Source: Anaerolineae bacterium (GTDB taxonomy: Bacteria; Chloroflexota; Anaerolineae; Aggregatilineales; Phototrophicaceae). Taken from it: 64,000 bases of DNA. The stretch spans positions 372,001 to 436,000 of the forward strand of contig JAJDZV010000004.1 in NCBI GenBank assembly GCA_022824465.1, in the 5' to 3' direction. Positions 37,788-47,051 of the stretch are shown piece by piece. Within the stretch, counting starts at the first letter, position 1; each line of letters starts with the position of its first letter. The notes beneath the pieces are model-generated. The model saw only the letters and a list, made by a program, of their open reading frames with translations. It did not search any database and was not told the DNA's origin. Position numbers and translations under genes: made by a program.

Positions 37788-39056
37788 ATGAATATCGCAA
37801 CGCTTGAAGGAAAAACCCTGCCCGAACTGCGCACCTTAGCGCGCAAGAATAACGTGCCGCGTTTCAGCCGGCTAAAAAAGCAAGACTTGATCATCGGACT
37901 GCTGCGCGAAGAAGCCGAGCGGCGCGGCAATCAGTTGCGCGGCGGCGTGCTCGAGGTCGTCGATGACGGCATTGGTTTCTTGCGCGCTGAAGGCTATCTG
38001 CCCGGGCAGAACGACATCTACGTCAGCTCGACGCAGATAAAGAAGTTTGGCTTGCGCACGGGCGACATGGTTATCGGCCAGGTGCGCCCGCCCAAGGACA
38101 CTGAGCGGTACTATGGCTTGCTGCGCGTCGACGCCGTCAATGGCTTGAATCCGCACGAGATTCGCAACCGCGCCTATTTCGAGCGTTTGACGCCGATCTT
38201 CCCTGAAGTTCGCTTCGACTTGGAGACGCTGCCGCGCATCATCTCGACGCGGATGCTGAATATGATCGCGCCAATCGGCTTTGGTCAGCGCGGCTTGATT
38301 GTCTCGCCGCCGAAAGCGGGCAAGACGACCGTGCTCAAGGATATCGCCAACGCCATCAGCCAGAATTATCCTGAAGTGCATCTGATGGTCGCGCTCATCG
38401 GCGAGCGGCCCGAAGAGGTTACGGATATGGATCGCTCGGTGGACGCCGAAGTGATCGCCTCGACATTTGACGATCCTGTGCATCATCATGTGCGCGTGGC
38501 GGAAATGGCGCTGGAGCGAGCCAAGCGTCTGGTGGAGGTCCGGCGGCATGTCGTGATGATGCTGGACAGCGTCACGCGTTTGGCGCGCGCTTACAACCTG
38601 GTTGTGCCGACCAGCGGGCGCACGCTTTCCGGCGGTTTGGACCCCTCGGCGATTCATCCGCCCAAGCGGCTCTACGGCGCGGCGCGCAATGTGGAGGAAG
38701 GCGGCAGCTTGACGATCGTGGCCACTTGCCTGGTCAATACTGGCAGCAAGATGGATGACGTGATCTATGAGGAATTCAAGGGCACTGGCAATATGGAATT
38801 GCACCTGAGCCGCAAGCTGCAGGAACGGCGCGTCTTCCCCGCCTTTGATGTCGAGCAGTCGTCGACGCGGCGCGAGGAACTGCTGCTTGGTCCGGATGTC
38901 TTGCAGCGTGTTTACACCATGCGGCGCATGTGGTCGCACTTGGCGGAGCAGCCTGAAGGCATTGTCGGCGCGACTGAACAGTTGCTGCACAACTTCCGCC
39001 TATACGACACGAACGAAGCCTTCCTCAACAACTTGCATGGCGGCAACGGGCGTTAG
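37788..39056 (+). CDS. rho: Transcription termination factor Rho
   Basis: The 422-residue hexameric RNA helicase/translocase terminates transcription. The N-terminal helical domain ([31 protein letters not shown]) is followed by the cold-shock RNA-binding domain ([31 protein letters not shown]). The ATPase follows with Walker A PPKAGKTT at 174-181, Walker B region [15 protein letters not shown], the Q-loop [15 protein letters not shown] and the R-loop [21 protein letters not shown]. It lacks the long N-terminal insertion of actinobacterial Rho. It is preceded by its own promoter and a 200-nt leader. Confidence 0.96.
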
Positions 39057-40124: not shown

Positions 40125-40153
40125 TTGACAGGCGAGCAAAGCTGCGCTAGGCT
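40125..40153 (+). promoter_or_regulatory. Sigma-70 promoter of the cysteine/siroheme operon
   Basis: A perfect TTGACA at 40125-40130 is followed by 17 bases and TAGGCT at 40148-40153 (three of six consensus, including the key first T, A and last T). The predicted start near 40160 places the first cysteine-rich leader frame about 28 nt downstream. This is the only convincing promoter before the operon. Confidence 0.6.
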
Positions 40154-40187
40154 GTGGGGCGTTGAGCAAGATATTTCGCGAGATGTG

Positions 40188-40253
40188 ATGAATCGGAATT
40201 GCTGCGCCGCGTGTTGTTGTCAGACGCTTTCAGCCGAAAGTCGTGCGGAGTAG
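40188..40253 (+). CDS. Cysteine-rich leader peptide 1
   Basis: A 21-codon open frame starts at ATG 40188 and ends with TAG at 40251-40253. Residues 5-11 read C C A A C C C, so five of seven codons are cysteine (TGC TGC ... TGT TGT TGT). No folded domain is possible. Its likely job is to make ribosomes stall when charged Cys-tRNA is scarce. It lies after the operon promoter and before terminator 1. The ribosome-binding site is weak (GAGATGTG). It is too short and too biased in composition to be a normal gene, but both features are what an attenuator peptide needs. Confidence 0.7.
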   Translation: MNRNCCAACCCQTLSAESRAE

Positions 40254-40309
40254 CGTTGCCAAGTCTTTATTGACACAGCGCAAATTGGAGAAAGACGCCC
40301 CGTAACGAC
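40240..40309 (+). promoter_or_regulatory. Candidate antiterminator pairing of attenuator 1
   Basis: GTCGTGCGG at 40240-40248 can pair with CCGTAACGAC at 40300-40309 through nine pairs with one bulged A and one G-U. This would take up the 5' arm and loop of terminator 1. The first segment overlaps the end of leader frame 1, so a ribosome at its stop codon would mask it, while one stalled at the cysteine codons (40200-40220) would not. Inferred by eye; no energy was calculated. Confidence 0.45.
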
Positions 40310-40322
40310 ACGGGGCTTTTTT
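40297..40322 (+). terminator. Intrinsic terminator 1 of the cys leader
   Basis: The perfect seven-base stem GCCCCGT (40297-40303) and ACGGGGC (40310-40316) encloses the loop AACGAC and is followed directly by six T (40317-40322). It lies 43 bases after leader frame 1 and before leader frame 2, so it can cut transcription before the operon genes. Confidence 0.85.
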
Positions 40323-40349
40323 GTTGCCAGCGGCGGATAGGAAGCCGAG

Positions 40350-40448
40350 ATGATGTTCAGAGTTCAATCGTGTTCCTGCGCTTGTTGTTGCTGCGCTGCG
40401 CGGATGCAGCGAGGATATCCAGGGCTGGTTGATCGATGTAGCCGGTGA
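40350..40448 (+). CDS. Cysteine-rich leader peptide 2
   Basis: A 32-codon open frame starts at ATG 40350 (a second in-frame ATG at 40353) and ends with TGA at 40446-40448. AGGAAG at 40339-40344 is a good ribosome-binding site, 5 or 8 bases away. Residues 8-15 read C S C A C C C C, six cysteines in eight codons, mixing TGT and TGC, both read by the same tRNA-Cys. A seventh Cys is at position 30. The frame lies between terminators 1 and 2. The composition and location indicate a cysteine-sensing attenuator peptide. Confidence 0.75.
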   Translation: MMFRVQSCSCACCCCAARMQRGYPGLVDRCSR

Positions 40449-40479
40449 GAAGTTTAGAAACTTCGGGGCGCCTTGGATA
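40416..40479 (+). promoter_or_regulatory. Candidate antiterminator pairing of attenuator 2
   Basis: TATCCAGGGC at 40416-40425, inside leader frame 2 and 21 bases after the last clustered Cys codon, can form ten consecutive pairs (one G-U) with GCCTTGGATA at 40470-40479. That covers eight of ten bases of the 5' arm of terminator 2, so the two structures exclude each other. A ribosome stalled on the cysteine codons leaves 40416-40425 free. A ribosome at the stop codon sits between the two arms. A small hairpin CGCTGC/GCAGCG at 40394-40411 lies upstream. Confidence 0.6.
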
Positions 40480-40500
40480 ATCCGAGGCGCTTTTGCTTTT
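40468..40500 (+). terminator. Intrinsic terminator 2 of the cys leader
   Basis: The ten-base stem GCGCCTTGGA (40468-40477) and TCCGAGGCGC (40481-40490), with one G-U pair and loop TAA, is followed by TTTTGCTTTT. It ends 28 bases before the APS reductase start, so its readthrough controls the whole operon. Confidence 0.85.
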
Positions 40501-40527
40501 CACCGCGAACAGCCAGAACCGGGAGTC

Positions 40528-41241
40528 ATGATGATAAGTTACAAACTCGAGAAACTAGCCAAAGACTTTGAGAAAGCCAGTCCGCGCGAAGTCCTCGCCT
40601 GGGCGAGCGCGACCTACGGCGACAAGCTTGCCATCGTGACGAGCTTTCAAGTCACCGGCATCGCCACATTGCACATGCTCCAGAGCATAGCGCCGCGAAC
40701 GACCGTGCTGACGCTCGATACGGGTTTGCTCTTCCCGGAGACGCAGGATCTCATCGACGATTTGGAGCAGCGCTTTGACCTCAACCTGTGGCGGGTCAAG
40801 CCGCGGCAAACACCGAAGCAACAGGCGCGCGATTATGGCGACCGCCTGTGGGAGCGCAATCCCGATCGCTGCTGCCACATCCGCAAGACCATTCCGCTGC
40901 GCGATGCCTTGGCCGGCTTTGACGCCTGGGTTACCGGGCTGCGGCGCGATCAATCGCCCGAGCGCGCGGCCACGCCAATCCTCAGCCGGGACCGCCGCAA
41001 TGGGCTGATCAAGCTTGCGCACTTCGCCAATTGGAGCGAGGCGCAGGTCTGGGGGTATATCCGCGAAAACGACCTGCCCGCGAATCAGCTGCACGCCATG
41101 GGTTACGCCAGCATCGGCTGCTGGACCTGCACCAAGGCGAAGACGGAGGGCGGCGATCTTCGCAGCGGACGCTGGTCGAAGCGCGCAAAGACCGAATGCG
41201 GCATCCATGTCGCGCCCTTGGCGGAGGCAATCCATGGCTGA
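40528..41241 (+). CDS. cysH: Adenylyl-sulfate (APS) reductase, thioredoxin-dependent
   Basis: This 237-residue enzyme reduces activated sulfate to sulfite in assimilation. It shows the PP-loop-like nucleotide region (AIVTSFQVTGIATLHML), LDTGLLFPET, and the iron-sulfur ligands C115-C116 (DRCCHIRK) and C198/C201 (GCWTC), which define the APS-using, [4Fe-4S] type rather than the PAPS type. The catalytic Cys is C224 in KTECGIH. GGGAG precedes ATG 40528/40531. An in-frame upstream start at 40429 would cross the terminator and is rejected. Its 3' end overlaps the next gene by eight bases. Confidence 0.93.
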   Translation: MMISYKLEKLAKDFEKASPREVLAWASATYGDKLAIVTSFQVTGIATLHMLQSIAPRTTVLTLDTGLLFPETQDLIDDLEQRFDLNLWRVKPRQTPKQQARDYGDRLWERNPDRCCHIRKTIPLRDALAGFDAWVTGLRRDQSPERAATPILSRDRRNGLIKLAHFANWSEAQVWGYIRENDLPANQLHAMGYASIGCWTCTKAKTEGGDLRSGRWSKRAKTECGIHVAPLAEAIHG

Positions 41242-41896
41242 GCATGCTTCCGCTTATCCCATCTTGCTCCACTTGCGCGACCGGCAGGCGGCGGTGATCG
41301 GCGGCGGTCGCGTGGGCGCGCGCAAGGTTCGGCGCCTGCTGCAAGCCGGGGCGCGCGTGCTGCTCGTCAGCCCGGAGACCAGCGCGGAGCTGCAAGACCT
41401 GGCTGACAACGGCGCGATCGAATGGATTGAGGCGCGATACCAACGCGACATGCTCAATGACTATATGCCGCTGCTGGTCATCGCCGCGACCGATGATGAG
41501 CGCGTCAATCTCACGGTGGCGCAAGACGCGCATCGCATCCGCGCGCTCTGCAATGTCGCTGACGGCAGCAGCGACCACAGCGACTTCAGCAATATGGCGC
41601 TGATAGAGCAGCCGCCCTTGACTATCGCCTTAAGCAGCGATGGCAAGTCCCCGGCGCTGATTCGCTTGCTCAAGCAGCGTTTCGAAGCCGATTATGGCGA
41701 AGAATACGCGCTGCTGGCGGAATGGCTGGGGGAGATTCGTCAAACTCAAAAGGAGCGTCTGCCCGCCCAAGCAGAGCGGCAAAGCGTCTATCAAGAGATT
41801 GTGACATCAGAATTGCTCGCGCTGCTACGGGAAGGCGAACGCGAAAAAGCGCGGCGGCTATTCTACTCGATTCTGCTGGAGGACGAGCCGGAATGA
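41234..41896 (+). CDS. Precorrin-2 dehydrogenase (siroheme synthase N-terminal domain type)
   Basis: This 220-residue protein oxidises precorrin-2 to sirohydrochlorin with NAD. The N-terminal Rossmann motif is AAVIGGGRVGARKVRRLLQAGA (GGGRVG at 23-28), followed by VIAATDDERVN and CNVADGSSDHSDFSNMALIEQPPLTIALSSDGKSPALIRLLK. These match the CysG N-terminal and Met8/SirC family. Iron insertion is probably done by the next gene product. It overlaps cysH by eight bases and the chelatase gene by four, so it is within one translationally coupled operon. Confidence 0.9.
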   Translation: MAEHASAYPILLHLRDRQAAVIGGGRVGARKVRRLLQAGARVLLVSPETSAELQDLADNGAIEWIEARYQRDMLNDYMPLLVIAATDDERVNLTVAQDAHRIRALCNVADGSSDHSDFSNMALIEQPPLTIALSSDGKSPALIRLLKQRFEADYGEEYALLAEWLGEIRQTQKERLPAQAERQSVYQEIVTSELLALLREGEREKARRLFYSILLEDEPE

Positions 41897-43224
41897 GCGG
41901 CGTCGCCTTGATTCTTGCCGGGCACGGCTCGCATATCAGCGCAAGCACGGCCGGCGTCGTCTGGGATTGTGTTGACCGGCTTCGGCAGTTGGGCGTCGCT
42001 GATGAAATAACGGCTTGCTTCTGGAAGGAGCCGCCCGCGTTCTCACAAGCGCTGAACATGGTCGAAGCGGATGACGTCGTTGTCGTGCCGCTCTTCACGG
42101 CGCGCGGCTACTTCGCGCAACAGGCGCTGCCGAGCGAGATGGGGCTTGGCGGTCCTTTAACACGCATCGGCAAACGCCGGATACACTTGACGCCGACCAT
42201 CGGCGAACACCGAATCCTGGACGCTATCGTCGACGAGCGCCTACGCGACGCGATTAATCGCTTCAATCTTGCGGCGGCGGAATCGGCGGTCGCCGTCATC
42301 GGTCATGGCACACGCCGCAACAGGCAGAGCCGGGACACAGCGCGTCAGCAAGCCGAGCGCCTCCGGGCAGCGAACTGGTTCGACGAAGTAGTCGCCGTCT
42401 ATCTTGACGATGATCCGCCTATTCCCAGCGTCTATCAGTCGACGCGCTCGCCCAATATCATCGCCCTGCCCTACTTTCTGGCTGATGGCTCGCATGTCGG
42501 GATTGATTTGCCGCGCGCGCTTGGCATTAGCGGCAGCGCGACGGTTGGACGGGTCAACGGACGCGCCGTTTATTATTGCGCGCCGGTCGGGACTGATGAG
42601 TCGATCTGCGATGTGGCGCTGGCTTTGGCGCGCGACACCGGCTTGCCTTTCGAGTCGCAAGCGGTCGATGGCGCCTGGGCGTGCTTTCCGTCCGCCGGGC
42701 GCCGCCTCTTGTCCAAGGCTCTGGACGCGGGAAGAATACTGACCTTGGGACAAGTCAACGTCAGCCGTGAACGCGTCTGGCATAGTGATGCAAGGGCTGG
42801 CAGTCGGAAGTTCGGGTCGCCGGCGTCGCTGCGGCGTCACCTTCGCGAGCAGCCTTTCCGCCCTTTGCCGACCAGCGTCGATATGCCGGGCGACTGGCAG
42901 GTCGAATGCGAAAAGACTGACGACGCGCATGCTGTGGTCGAGACGGTCTACCCCGGAGTAGTCGCCGACTGGGCGGCAAATTGCCAAGGGCGGCTAACGA
43001 CTGAGTCCTTGGAGACGGTCGCCAGGCGGCAGCAAGGCATGTTCCGCGGAATCCAGAACCTAGCCAAGGCGGCCCTCATGGAGACCTTTGACCGGGTATG
43101 CGGCGGCTGCATCCGCCAGCCAACCTGGCGCGAAGACTTGGCCGCCAATGACGCCGCGCTGCCTTGCCGCTCCGCATGCAATGTCTGGCTCTCAGCCGCG
43201 CTTGAAATGGGAGAGTCGTTGTGA
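41893..43224 (+). CDS. Sirohydrochlorin chelatase, double CbiX domain with C-terminal Fe-S domain
   Basis: This 443-residue protein is predicted to insert iron into sirohydrochlorin to give siroheme. Two CbiX-type halves are visible. The first starts LILAGHGSHISAS with catalytic His11, and the second contains VAVIGHGTRRNRQSRD. The C-terminal third ends with a four-cysteine arrangement C403xxC406...C425xxxC429, probably a [4Fe-4S] site, as in the Deinococcus DR2241-like fusion. It overlaps its neighbours by four bases on both sides (ATGA, GTGA). Separate CbiX proteins are shorter (about 120-250), so the Fe-S extension is notable. Confidence 0.85.
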   Translation: MSGVALILAGHGSHISASTAGVVWDCVDRLRQLGVADEITACFWKEPPAFSQALNMVEADDVVVVPLFTARGYFAQQALPSEMGLGGPLTRIGKRRIHLTPTIGEHRILDAIVDERLRDAINRFNLAAAESAVAVIGHGTRRNRQSRDTARQQAERLRAANWFDEVVAVYLDDDPPIPSVYQSTRSPNIIALPYFLADGSHVGIDLPRALGISGSATVGRVNGRAVYYCAPVGTDESICDVALALARDTGLPFESQAVDGAWACFPSAGRRLLSKALDAGRILTLGQVNVSRERVWHSDARAGSRKFGSPASLRRHLREQPFRPLPTSVDMPGDWQVECEKTDDAHAVVETVYPGVVADWAANCQGRLTTESLETVARRQQGMFRGIQNLAKAALMETFDRVCGGCIRQPTWREDLAANDAALPCRSACNVWLSAALEMGESL

Positions 43225-44042
43225 AAACCGGGACGGTCTATCTGGTCGGCGCCGGACCGGGCGATCCCGATCTGATCACGCGCAAAGGGCTGCGTTTGCT
43301 GCGGCGAGCCGATGTGGTGATCTACGATCGGTTGATTCCCCATGTTCTGCTGGACGAGACGAAGGTCGACGCCGAACTCATCGATGGCGGCAAGCAGCCA
43401 GCCAGGCAAAGGCTCTCACAAGCGCATATCAACGAACTGCTGGTGGACCGGGCGCTCGCGGGCAAAGACGTCGTGCGGCTGAAAGGGGGCGATCCGCTGG
43501 TCTTCGGCCGCGGCAGCGAAGAAGCGCTGGCTTGCCGCGAATATGGCATCTCCTTTGAGATCGTGCCCGGCGTGTCCAGCGCCATTGCCGCGCCCGCTTA
43601 TGCCGGCATCTCTTTGACGCAGCGCCACATCAGCAGCGCCTTCACCGTCATCACCGGGCATGAAGCGCCGGACAAAGACGAAAGCGCCATCAACTACGAA
43701 GGGTTGGCGCGGCTGGGCGGCACGCTTGTCATTTTGATGGGCGTCAAGCAACTGCCGGCAATCAGCGAGCGTCTGGTCGCCGCCGGCTTGGCTGGCGATA
43801 CACCGGCCGCCGTCATCGAATGGGGCACGCTCGCAAATCAGCGCGTCTTTGTCGGCGTCCTGGACGATATCGCTGAGATCGCGAAATCCCAGAACGTCCG
43901 ACCGCCGGCGATCACCGTGATCGGCGAAGTCGTGAACTTGCGCAAACAAGGCATGGCTTGGTTTGATCGCCTAGAGGTTGAGGCGCTGGAAACAGAAAAC
44001 AGTACCGGGCATGGCATTGAATTTGGCGGGGCGACGCTGTAG
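43221..44042 (+). CDS. cobA: Uroporphyrinogen-III C-methyltransferase
   Basis: This 273-residue SAM-dependent methyltransferase converts uroporphyrinogen III to precorrin-2, the first committed step of siroheme. It carries the SUMT signatures VYLVGAGPGDPDLITRKGLRLL, VVRLKGGDPLVFGRGSEEA and VPGVSSAIAAPAYAGISLTQR, and a mid MGVKQL region. GTG 43221 overlaps the chelatase stop. The last codons and the stop lie inside a palindromic repeat (44028-44052), so the C-terminal tail has been shaped by repeat insertion. There is no uroporphyrinogen synthase domain. Confidence 0.93.
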   Translation: MKTGTVYLVGAGPGDPDLITRKGLRLLRRADVVIYDRLIPHVLLDETKVDAELIDGGKQPARQRLSQAHINELLVDRALAGKDVVRLKGGDPLVFGRGSEEALACREYGISFEIVPGVSSAIAAPAYAGISLTQRHISSAFTVITGHEAPDKDESAINYEGLARLGGTLVILMGVKQLPAISERLVAAGLAGDTPAAVIEWGTLANQRVFVGVLDDIAEIAKSQNVRPPAITVIGEVVNLRKQGMAWFDRLEVEALETENSTGHGIEFGGATL

Positions 44043-44052
44043 CTCGCCCGCC
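44028..44052 (+). repeat. Palindromic intergenic repeat, copy 13 (overlaps cobA 3' end)
   Basis: GGGGCGACGCTGTAGCTCGC is followed by CCGCC. The TAG stop of cobA is formed within the repeat loop. A near twin follows at 44065-44092. Confidence 0.65.
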
Positions 44053-44064
44053 GCAACCGCAAAA

Positions 44065-44092
44065 TTAGGGGCGACGCTGTGATTCGCCCGCG
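44065..44092 (+). repeat. Palindromic intergenic repeat, copy 14
   Basis: TTAGGGGCGACGCTGTGATT is followed by CGCCCGCG. It shares GGGGCGACGCTGT with copy 13, only 37 bases upstream, giving a tandem arrangement. Confidence 0.65.
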
Positions 44093-44114
44093 ATACGGAG
44101 AGGACTGGCAAATC

Positions 44115-46361
44115 ATGACCACCTGGAAAGAACTGCTAGACGACAAGATACCGGCCGAGATGGGCAAACTCATCGACACCTACGAAGCGCAGATGGAGTT
44201 GCGCAAGCAAGGCAAGCTCGACGAGAAAGTCTTCGCGGAATCCCGCCTGCGCAAAGGCGTCTATGGCCAGCGCTACGACAACGGCCAGCGCCACGACGGC
44301 GTCCGCACGCGCGAATTGCATTACTCGTCAGACGAGGTGGTCAAGGGACCCGACACGCTTTGGGACGCGCCGGGCATGCAGCGCATAAAGATCCCATACG
44401 GCGGCTTGACTGCCGAGCAATTGGAGGTTCTGTCGGAGCTGGCGGACGAGTATTCGGATGGCATCCTGCATATCACCACGCGGCAGGACATTCAACTGCA
44501 TTACGTGCACATCGACGACACGCCCGATTTGATGCGGCGGTTGGCGGCGGTCAGCATCACCACGCAGGAAGCCTGCGGCAACTCGGTTCGCAACATCACC
44601 GCATGCGCGCTGGCGGGCGTCTGCCACGACGAGGTCTTTGACGTCAGCCCCTACGCCGATGCGATGACGCAGTTCTTGCTTGGGCATGACGATGTGCAAG
44701 ACTTCGGCCGCAAATTCAAAGTCGCATTCTCTGGCTGCGCCGGGCACGCTTGCGGTCTGGTGAAGATGCACGACCTCGGGCTTTTGGCGCAGACGCGCGA
44801 GCTTGATGGCGAGGCCGTCCGCGGCTTCACCGTCTTCGTGGGCGGCGGCTTGGGCACCGTGCCGCACCAAGCCAAAGTCCTGGCTGAGTTCTGCACCGAA
44901 GAGCAGTTGCTCCCCCTGACGCAGGCGATTGCGCGCGTCTTCGCCCGGCTGGGTGAAAAGAAGAATCGCAACCGCGCCCGGCTCAAGTTCCTGGTGGCAA
45001 AGCTCGGCATCGACGAGTTCCGCGGTCTGGTGGAGGAAGAGCTCAAAACTGTGCCGCCCGACCCGCGCCATACCGACTACATCCCCAAGGTAAGCGACTT
45101 CGTTAACGCGCCGGCGAAAGCGGGCATGGCGCTGAATGGCGCACCGCTGCCGGATGGCTTCGCCGAGTGGTACGCCACCAACGTTTACAAGCAGGTTCAG
45201 GGCGGTTACAGCACGATCACGCTGAATACGCCGCTGGGCGACCTCACATCGGAGCAGGGATTCAAGCTGGCTGATATCGCCCGCGAATATGTCGGCGACA
45301 ATATCCGGCTCTCGGTCGAGCAGAATGTCGTGCTCCGTTGGGTGGCTGATGCCGACCTGCCGGCGATCTACCGCGACCTCCTCGCCATCGGCTTGGGAGA
45401 CGCCAACGCCGGAACCATCGTCGACATCACCACCTGCCCCGGCACCGATACCTGCAAGCTGGGCATCGCCTCATCGCGGGGGTTGACCGCCGAGCTGCGC
45501 GCGCGCTTGATCGAGCGCATCAATCTGCTGCCCGATGCCGTGCGCGATCTCAAGATCAAAGTCAGCGGCTGCTTCAACTCCTGCGGCCAGCATCACGTCG
45601 CCGATATCGGCTTCTTCGGCAACAGCCGGCGCTCGGGCAATCACAAGATGCCGCATTTCCAGGTGGTGCTCGGCGGTCAGTGGCATGAGAACGCCGGCAG
45701 CTACGGGCTGGCCGTCGGCGCTGTGCCAGCCAAACGCGTGCCCGATGTGATCGAGGCATTGACCGAGCGCTATGTCGCTGAACGCGCCGAAGACGAAAAC
45801 TTCCAGACCTGGATCAAGGAACTGGGACGCAAAGAGATCAAGGCGATGCTGCAGCCCTTCACCAAGCTGCCGAGTTTTGAAGAGAAGCCGGATATGTTCA
45901 GCGACTGGGGCGATTCGCGCGTTTACACCATCGATGACATCGGCGTCGGCGAATGCGCGGGCGAGGTGGTGTCGCTCTTCTCGATGGAGATCTCCAGAGC
46001 GGAATCGACGCACTTCGAGGCGCTGCTGGCGCTGGACGAGGGCGACTACGCCCTGGCTGATGAGAACGCCTACAAAGCGATGGTGCAGGCGGCGCGCGCC
46101 CTGGTGCGCACGAAACACCTGGATGTCGGCGACGACTACAACAACATCGTGGATGAATTCCGCACGCGCTTCTACGATACCGAGCTGATCTATGATCGCT
46201 TCGCCAAAGGCAAATTCGCCCGTTATCTCTTCAATCGGCACAAGGAATCGCCGGCGCGGATCAACGAAGACTATGCCCATCAAATCATTGATGAGACGCA
46301 GCTCTTCATCGAGAACGTTCATACCGCCGAGCAGCGCATCAACGGCGTCATCGTCAGCTAA
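44115..46361 (+). CDS. Siroheme [4Fe-4S] nitrite/sulfite reductase
   Basis: This 748-residue assimilatory reductase carries out six-electron reduction of sulfite or nitrite. Two ferredoxin-like/siroheme half-modules are present. The second holds the cluster ligands C441/C447 (CPGTDTC) and C486/C490 (CFNSC), followed by GQHHVADIGFFG. The position in an APS reductase/siroheme operon favours sulfite as substrate. The C-terminal about 180 residues (from the LFSMEISRAEST region) form an additional helical domain not found in short family members and resembling HEPN-like helices. GAGAGGA precedes ATG 44115. Electrons probably come from ferredoxin. Confidence 0.9.
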   Translation: MTTWKELLDDKIPAEMGKLIDTYEAQMELRKQGKLDEKVFAESRLRKGVYGQRYDNGQRHDGVRTRELHYSSDEVVKGPDTLWDAPGMQRIKIPYGGLTAEQLEVLSELADEYSDGILHITTRQDIQLHYVHIDDTPDLMRRLAAVSITTQEACGNSVRNITACALAGVCHDEVFDVSPYADAMTQFLLGHDDVQDFGRKFKVAFSGCAGHACGLVKMHDLGLLAQTRELDGEAVRGFTVFVGGGLGTVPHQAKVLAEFCTEEQLLPLTQAIARVFARLGEKKNRNRARLKFLVAKLGIDEFRGLVEEELKTVPPDPRHTDYIPKVSDFVNAPAKAGMALNGAPLPDGFAEWYATNVYKQVQGGYSTITLNTPLGDLTSEQGFKLADIAREYVGDNIRLSVEQNVVLRWVADADLPAIYRDLLAIGLGDANAGTIVDITTCPGTDTCKLGIASSRGLTAELRARLIERINLLPDAVRDLKIKVSGCFNSCGQHHVADIGFFGNSRRSGNHKMPHFQVVLGGQWHENAGSYGLAVGAVPAKRVPDVIEALTERYVAERAEDENFQTWIKELGRKEIKAMLQPFTKLPSFEEKPDMFSDWGDSRVYTIDDIGVGECAGEVVSLFSMEISRAESTHFEALLALDEGDYALADENAYKAMVQAARALVRTKHLDVGDDYNNIVDEFRTRFYDTELIYDRFAKGKFARYLFNRHKESPARINEDYAHQIIDETQLFIENVHTAEQRINGVIVS

Positions 46362-46451: not shown

Positions 46452-47051
46452 ATGATAACCACCTTACCAAAACGCCTGGGCGTCAAGTTCAGCCTGAAAC
46501 AGCAACCGCAACTGCAGCCGGACGACATCCTGCCCATCTTCCAGCGTTGGATTCAGGAAGGCCGGGTCGAAGGCATGCTTATCGACGTCATCGACTACAA
46601 ACACGTGCCGGAGGGACCCGGCGTCGTGCTGATCGCTGATGAAGCGGATTACGCCTATGACCTCGGCGACGGGCAAACCGGCTTGCACTATATCCGCAAG
46701 CGCGATCTGCCCGATGACTTCGCCGCGGCTCTGGCGCTGGTCTTCCATTGCGCGCTGCAGGGGGCGCGGGCGCTCGAAGCCGAAGCGCCGGAGGATCTGC
46801 GCTTCAATTTCAGTTCGGTCAAGGTAAGCTTCTTCGACCGCATGAACTATCGCAACGAGTCCGCCGTATACGACGCGATCGGCGGCGCTGTCGCCGAGGT
46901 CATGACGGGCATCTACGGCGCGGAGATCAGCATTTCGCGCGTCTATGACGACCCGCGGCGGCTGCTCGCCCTTCGCGTCGAAGCGCAGTCGGATGATCTT
47001 GACCTCGCCGACATCAGCAGGCGGCTGAACGCGAGCCGGCAGACCGTCTAG
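46452..47051 (+). CDS. Conserved protein of unknown function linked to the siroheme reductase
   Basis: This 199-residue soluble protein has no recognised domain. It has a central acidic beta-rich part (GVVLIADEADYAYDLGDGQTGLHYIRKRDLPDDF) and a helical second half (SAVYDAIGGAVAEVMTGIYGAEISISRVYDD). AAGGAG at 46441-46446 gives a good ribosome site. It is the last gene of the sulfur operon, 90 bases after the reductase, and so may help electron delivery or assembly, but nothing in the sequence shows this. Confidence 0.6.
   Translation: MITTLPKRLGVKFSLKQQPQLQPDDILPIFQRWIQEGRVEGMLIDVIDYKHVPEGPGVVLIADEADYAYDLGDGQTGLHYIRKRDLPDDFAAALALVFHCALQGARALEAEAPEDLRFNFSSVKVSFFDRMNYRNESAVYDAIGGAVAEVMTGIYGAEISISRVYDDPRRLLALRVEAQSDDLDLADISRRLNASRQTV

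Follow-up and report, generated by a model that had tools for sequence, protein, structure and literature searches.

Two putative cysteine-codon attenuators in series ahead of cysH in an Anaerolineae bacterium (Chloroflexota) and its relatives

Attenuators of the trp, his and leu type consist of a short reading frame containing codons for the end product of the pathway, together with a terminator and an antiterminator that exclude each other. Here, we describe the region upstream of cysH, the gene of a (phospho)adenylyl-sulfate reductase, in a 64 kb stretch of DNA (positions 372,001 to 436,000 of contig JAJDZV010000004.1, hereafter the window) from an Anaerolineae bacterium, whose genome (G000) comprises 3.27 Mb on 14 contigs. 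This leader region (40125–40531 in window coordinates) sits between a short-chain dehydrogenase gene and cysH, and judged from its sequence it very probably contains two ribosome-mediated transcription attenuators in series, both of which likely read charged tRNA-Cys. With the trp, his and leu attenuators it shares a frame with end-product codons, a predicted terminator and a predicted antiterminator, located ahead of genes for the amino acid in question. It differs from them in its cysteine signal, in the presence of two full units behind one promoter-like site, in its occurrence in Chloroflexota, and in that the antiterminator arm of the second unit lies mostly ahead of the footprint expected for a ribosome at the stop codon.

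Mycobacteria also have short frames with runs of Cys codons ahead of sulfur genes; by the title of the work of Canestrari in 2020, such frames are reportedly leaderless, and translation attenuation is the mode cited. Unlike leaderless frames, the first leader described here has its ATG (40188) 35 nt past a −10-like element, the transcription start being predicted. According to another report, Mycobacterium and other bacteria have poly-Cys leader frames without obvious or conserved terminator hairpins upstream of cys operons (PMC1262725), whereas here two frames come with two terminator-like hairpins. In Rhodobacterales, the uORFC-8-2 motif ahead of cysS resembles the present leaders in that a short frame with Cys codons is combined with a U run at the end, and its authors inferred ribosome-mediated attenuation (PMC8632094). 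It differs from them in that it is a single unit with two conserved Cys codons, belongs to another phylum and precedes a tRNA synthetase gene, whereas the leaders described here precede cysH. Two short frames in one leader with attenuators in succession are known from Salmonella mgtCBR, for which PMC3641672 describes tandem attenuators for two signals (ATP and proline) and hairpins unlike intrinsic terminators; in our case both frames are Cys-rich, i.e., one signal would be read twice, and each has its own terminator-like hairpin. Two RNA sensors ahead of one gene or operon occur as double T-boxes (PMC9413887) and as tandem riboswitches at metE (PMC3641672), but those sensors are RNA domains and here they would be translated leaders. 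Among the matches listed in the open-access literature, neither a doubled attenuator responding to a single amino acid nor a cysteine attenuator from Chloroflexota appeared, which agrees with a first-pass annotation of the sequence that knew of no described tandem cysteine attenuator. Because tandem attenuators (mgtCBR) and cysteine-codon attenuators are already in print, the novelty would lie in doubling the attenuator for the same signal, in the phylum and in the regulon.

Each unit (Table 1) has a frame with a Cys run, a small hairpin, a putative antiterminator arm that begins about 19–20 nt past the last Cys codon and can pair with the 5′ arm and loop of the terminator, and the terminator itself, which is a GC-rich hairpin followed by Ts. 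Under cysteine shortage, the ribosome would halt on the Cys codons and leave the arm free; the free arm would then pair with the 5′ half of the terminator before the 3′ half is made, and RNA polymerase would continue. When cysteine is plentiful, the ribosome would cross the arm and reach the stop codon, the terminator would fold and transcription would end. Reaching cysH would require passing both gates, and because both must be passed, the leaks of the two should multiply under plenty, and the response should be steeper than that of one gate. The elements expected of an attenuator can be recognized in the window: putative short frames with a run of codons for the amino acid of the pathway (5 Cys in 7 and 6 Cys in 8 codons), a predicted intrinsic-type terminator between leader frame and gene, and an arm lying just beyond a ribosome stopped on the Cys run (median +19/+20 nt across 44 + 44 units). 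The promoter-like site, both leaders and both terminators lie where the first-pass annotation had placed them. Searched at gathering thresholds over the whole window, Rfam yielded no matching family, riboswitches and T-boxes included.

The doubled arrangement of Cys frame and terminator is not due to chance. We defined a unit as a short frame with 4 or more Cys within 8 codons plus a GC-rich hairpin with a T-rich tail 10–150 nt beyond the last Cys codon. Over both strands of the 64 kb window, this rule returned exactly two units, both of them on the + strand; in total there are four Cys-rich short frames, and a terminator is located behind only the two leader frames. Controls gave no units at all, neither in 1280 dinucleotide shuffles of upstream regions nor in 64 reverse complements nor in 244 other 535-nt tiles of the relatives' loci. 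The rule permits hairpin loops of 3–11 nt only, and the terminator of the cysteine synthase leader (see below) escaped it; owing to this limit, units with long-armed terminators ahead of cysH would escape it, too.

Table 1. Features of the leader region and the adjoining sulfur genes in window coordinates; regulatory elements are predictions.
Feature	Position	Strand	Remark
Promoter-like TTGACA-17-TAGGCT	40125..40153 (TTGACA 40125-40130; TAGGCT 40148-40153)	+	upstream of both leaders
Leader 1, MNRNCCAACCCQTLSAESRAE, 21 codons	40188..40253 (ATG 40188; TAG 40251-40253)	+	5 Cys in 7 codons
Leader 1 Cys codons	40200-40205 and 40212-40220	+	read from sequence
Unit 1 hairpin P1 (CTTTC/GAAAG), immediately 3′ of Cys run	40227..40240	+	genus alignment
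Unit 1 antiterminator 5′ arm GTCGTGCGG, starts 20 nt past last Cys codon	40240..40248	+	pairs with 40300-40309
Terminator 1: stem 40297-40316, T6 40317-40322; antiterminator 3′ arm = 40300-40309	40297..40322	+	
GGAAG, Shine-Dalgarno-like, ahead of leader 2	40340-40344	+	
Leader 2, MMFRVQSCSCACCCCAARMQRGYPGLVDRCSR, 32 codons	40350..40448 (ATG 40350; TGA 40446-40448)	+	6 Cys in 8 codons
Leader 2 Cys codons	40371-40373, 40377-40379, 40383-40394	+	read from sequence
Unit 2 hairpin P1 (CTGC/GCAG), immediately 3′ of Cys run	40396..40409	+	genus alignment
Unit 2 antiterminator 5′ arm TATCCAGGGC, starts 22 nt past last codon of Cys run	40416..40425	+	pairs with 40470-40479
Terminator 2: core stem 40468-40490 (10 pairs), then TTTT; antiterminator 3′ arm = 40470-40479	40465..40494	+	
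cysH, (phospho)adenylyl-sulfate reductase, first gene past leader	40528..41241 (ATG 40528)	+	PF01507 155.6 bits
Same-strand genes after cysH: siroheme synthase N-domain, CbiX-like with 4Fe-4S domain, uroporphyrinogen-III methyltransferase, nitrite/sulfite-reductase-family protein	41237..46361	+	

cysH was matched in 62 of the 98 genomes of the family (Phototrophicaceae), and 64 of the 68 listed places were examined; the four left out were short matches (37–43 residues, E 8e-6 to 8e-5), including the sole match in genome G058. By the rule, 39 of these 64 loci have two units, 7 have one and 18 none. Within the genus of the window, two units precede cysH in 30 of the 34 loci (from the 33 of its 34 genomes in which cysH was matched), three others (L010, L015 and L034) have fewer Cys but retain the two frames and their terminators, and the second cysH of one genome (L036 in G063) is a same-genus locus without any unit. 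Outside the genus, two units were found in 9 of 30 family loci, from four further genera, i.e., five genera in all. For the order outside the family, 26 of 29 listed places were fetched (of the three omitted, one was cut by a contig end and two were short matches); two of these loci, from two families (L159 and L160), have two units, three have one and 21 none. A wider cysH search, of which the best 80 of 587 matches were taken, contributed 38 further distinct loci, many of them from other phyla, one with two units (L090) and one with a single unit (L099), which are the same records as L159 and L165. These comparisons correspond to a check that the first-pass annotation had proposed, and in close relatives the Cys runs, the two terminators and the arms that pair are indeed retained, with much else varying.

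In several of the loci without units, a long open frame ends close upstream of cysH, so that cysH may not head its operon there. In a cysH tree with 90 rows, the 41 rows labelled "two" cluster, but the label takes 11 changes, at least 8 of which are forced by well-supported branches. The tandem may have an early origin followed by losses, or it may have been gained repeatedly. One locus outside the genus (L042) shows a single Cys leader followed by two successive terminator-like hairpins, at about −96 and −65 from the cysH match.

Of 88 units, 82 have an ATG in frame with the Cys run (same-genus counts are 27/32 for unit 1 and 31/31 for unit 2), compared with just 6/88 for a Leu frame and 2/88 for a Val frame over the same runs. 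This bears on the possibility that the runs act in another frame, with TTG or GTT repeats serving as Leu or Val codons and the leader sensing leucine or valine. Indeed, TGTTGTTG encodes Leu or Val in its alternative frames. A Leu frame with 4 or more Leu within 8 codons overlaps the run in 31/32 (unit 1) and 30/31 (unit 2) same-genus cases, a Val frame with at least 4 Val exists in 25/32 and 21/31 within the genus and in 9/12 and 11/13 outside, and T/C changes in the Cys codons are silent in the Leu frame as well. However, Leu runs fade outside the genus (2/12 and 4/13, Cys runs being present there by construction of the search), and the genes serve sulfate reduction and cysteine synthesis; together with the start codons, this leaves leucine or valine sensing a very slim chance. 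Furthermore, the Cys codons are supported as the signal because a single poly-Cys leader also precedes a cysteine synthase gene in the genus.

The Cys-rich peptides could also be the product themselves, acting as metal- or thiol-binding micropeptides, with the hairpins being ordinary gene ends. The conservation of the short Cys-rich frames and the Shine-Dalgarno-like site ahead of leader 2 would fit this, but the peptide apart from its Cys run tracks the RNA (in leader 2, the arm of the antiterminator encodes the GYPGL part), and the distance from the last Cys to the stop codon varies from 15 to 90 nt across units, so that we assign the micropeptides next to no probability.

Of 32 same-genus leaders, 30 have TTGAC[AG] with TANNNT at a spacer of 17 ahead of leader 1, the −10 element being the best of spacers 16–18. 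The TTGACA/TAGGCT motif named as a promoter in the first-pass annotation is present in the window and the site is conserved in the genus, but it was not listed by the promoter scan and its −10 element matches at 3 of 6 positions. The sole scan match for a second promoter between the units (40453–40481, 9/12) overlaps terminator 2 and was rejected, and none of 30 same-genus loci has TTGAC[AG] in the stretch from terminator 1 to the Cys run of leader 2. Because the promoter-like site occurs only ahead of leader 1 and none is found between the units, both units are most likely located on a single transcript.

Two hairpins with T runs are present in 30 of 34 same-genus loci, their stems are paired in 97–98% of the cells of the genus alignments, and terminator 1 precedes leader 2, away from the start of cysH. 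These findings argue against translational or Rho-dependent control by the poly-Cys frames, as in mycobacteria, in which the hairpins would be incidental. Such control is suggested by the poly-Cys leader frames of Mycobacterium cys operons, described without obvious terminators in PMC1262725, by translation attenuation of the cysteine genes of M. smegmatis, as cited in PMC13236596, and by a rho gene within the window itself (37788–39056). We give it a slim chance.

For the attenuators in series, conserved pairing was evaluated in alignments of those first-copy same-genus loci in which the respective unit was found by the rule (alignment A3 for unit 1, 32 of 33; alignment A2 for unit 2, 31 of 33). 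Measured from the last Cys codon across 44 + 44 units, the median start of the antiterminator arm is 19 nt in unit 1 and 20 nt in unit 2, and that of the terminator 73 and 70 nt, respectively (53–80 nt). Terminator 2 together with two small helices is paired in 95.0% of cells and its stem alone in 97.7%; terminator 1 together with the hairpin after the Cys run reaches 87.2% and its stem alone 97.3%. The P1 hairpins are paired in 75% (unit 1, two-sided changes in 4/6 pairs) and 89.5% (unit 2, 2/4 pairs) of cells, and for the terminators plus small helices of both units the covariation score exceeds all shuffles. The predicted antiterminator of unit 2, which would exclude the terminator, is paired in 95.9% of cells with two-sided changes at 3 pairs; equally high scores were obtained in 0–3 of 500 shuffles, and slid versions were paired in 13–57%. 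Native pairing of arm and terminator beats the mean of swapped partners in 36/44 cases for unit 1 and 36/44 for unit 2, and the units of one genome favour their own partner in 29/40 (unit 1) and 36/40 (unit 2).

Folding states were predicted by an energy model with an assumed ribosome footprint, and for the ribosome at the stop codon the upstream RNA was left out. At the stage before the 3′ arm exists, the mean modelled antiterminator probability is 0.29 (unit 1) and 0.36 (unit 2) in free RNA, 0.73 and 0.80 with a ribosome on the first Cys codon, and 0.83 and 0.84 with a ribosome on the last one. With the ribosome at the stop codon, the modelled terminator probability is 0.96 (unit 1) and 0.95 (unit 2), and the ribosome would cover the arm of unit 1 in 42/44 cases. 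The first-pass annotation had suggested attenuation by ribosomes stalled on the Cys codons, and the modelled antiterminator does, on average, arise mainly with a ribosome there, the RNA of the window not being the cleanest case.

The same data bear on whether one unit alone might regulate and the other be a relic or a constant damper, e.g., with unit 2 as the switch and unit 1 lowering basal transcription. Covariation backs antiterminator 2 and not antiterminator 1, and by the rule a single unit is present in 7/64 family and 3/26 order loci (three of those seven keep both, with fewer Cys). On the other side, the rule recovers unit 1 from 32 of 33 first-copy same-genus loci, the position of its arm is constant (median +19), a stop-codon ribosome would cover its arm far more often than that of unit 2 (42/44 vs 16/44), and its native pairs lie above the mean of swapped ones in 36/44. 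We regard a single working unit as rather unlikely, though it is the least improbable of the alternatives considered.

A number of results weigh against two attenuators in series. Units are absent from 18/64 family loci and 21/26 order loci. Antiterminator 1 is paired in 91.6% of genus cells, but its covariation score is not above shuffles (221/500 as high), and for the terminators and small helices the counts of two-sided pairs are not above shuffles either (unit 2, 223/500 as high; unit 1, 237/500). At single loci, pairing differed from shuffles at p<=0.05 in just 26/44 (unit 1) and 30/44 (unit 2) cases. In unit 2, the modelled stop-codon ribosome covers the arm in just 16/44 cases and not in the window, where the arm extends from +22 to +29 and the footprint from +35 to +63; since the footprint mostly misses the arm, switching off unit 2 would require that the ribosome keeps the arms apart rather than covering one. 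In the window, the free RNA is already predicted to form the antiterminator (0.81 for unit 1 and 0.95 for unit 2), and placing a ribosome on the first Cys codon of unit 1 reduces the modelled antiterminator to 0.30, compared with 0.92 for the last one. Once the complete RNA is present, the terminator prevails (0.75/0.71) even if a ribosome occupies the last Cys codon, hence the model depends on the order of folding. Leader 2 of two loci (L024 and L034) stops late; the ribosome there would reach into terminator 2 and should disturb the switch.

Cys-codon runs occur at 12 places across the own genome. A poly-Cys short frame, MSYHLCCCCCQKMGA, at L157:1486–1533 (G000:C9) is located ahead of a cysteine-synthase-like gene, which scores 336.8 bits with TIGR01138 (cysM), under the cut-off of 394.2. 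Such a frame precedes the cysteine synthase gene in all 30 fetched same-genus loci (of 32 strong places listed). Behind this leader, two 11-nt terminator arms were present in 30/30 loci with a motif that was set after viewing the alignment and in 25/30 with a stricter arm motif; in these 25 the stem spans 60–79 nt with a structured interior and a T6 at the end, and one locus (L211) has C-G in the stem where others have T-A or T-G. Since cysteine synthase in the genus has a single Cys frame and a long-armed putative terminator, leader peptides seem to run a small cysteine regulon here. For ATP sulfurylase of the own genome, no Cys leader was found in the stretch upstream of its frame (L214), and cysE gave three weak matches there, none over the model's cut-off. 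A further genome of the genus (G082) has no cysH match, yet it has kept the poly-Cys leader at its cysteine synthase (L209).

Taken together, we lean towards a doubled gate for the same signal, in which two tRNA-Cys sensors behind one promoter would act multiplicatively, and which would have been kept in five genera of one family, and be found in two more families, because it is steep and tight; the third Cys leader would put cysteine synthase on the same signal, forming a cysteine regulon free of regulatory proteins. If so, this would be a naturally occurring example of two attenuators that share their logic and respond in series to one signal, and a question of design would become testable, namely whether doubling a leaky gate gives a steeper or merely a tighter response. 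It would also extend leader-peptide control of cysteine metabolism to Chloroflexota. For finding more such leaders in uncultured bacteria, the loci suggest a sequence rule consisting of a Cys run, an arm at +19 to +20 and a terminator about 70 nt on.

The first gene past the leader had been labelled adenosine 5′-phosphosulfate (APS) reductase in the first-pass annotation. A reductase gene is present, but the models do not settle the APS label: the product scores 253 bits with NCBIfam NF002537 (phosphoadenylyl-sulfate reductase), over the cut-off of 154, and 199.1 bits with TIGR02055 (APS_reductase), under the cut-off of 235.3. Following the nitrite/sulfite-reductase-family gene, a frame of 199 aa (46452–47051) had no Pfam or NCBIfam match at E 0.001. 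Inside the run of sulfur genes, the CbiX-like protein (41890–43224) has NCBIfam matches that are all below their cut-offs, and it carries a C-terminal 4Fe-4S domain (Pfam Fer4_23).

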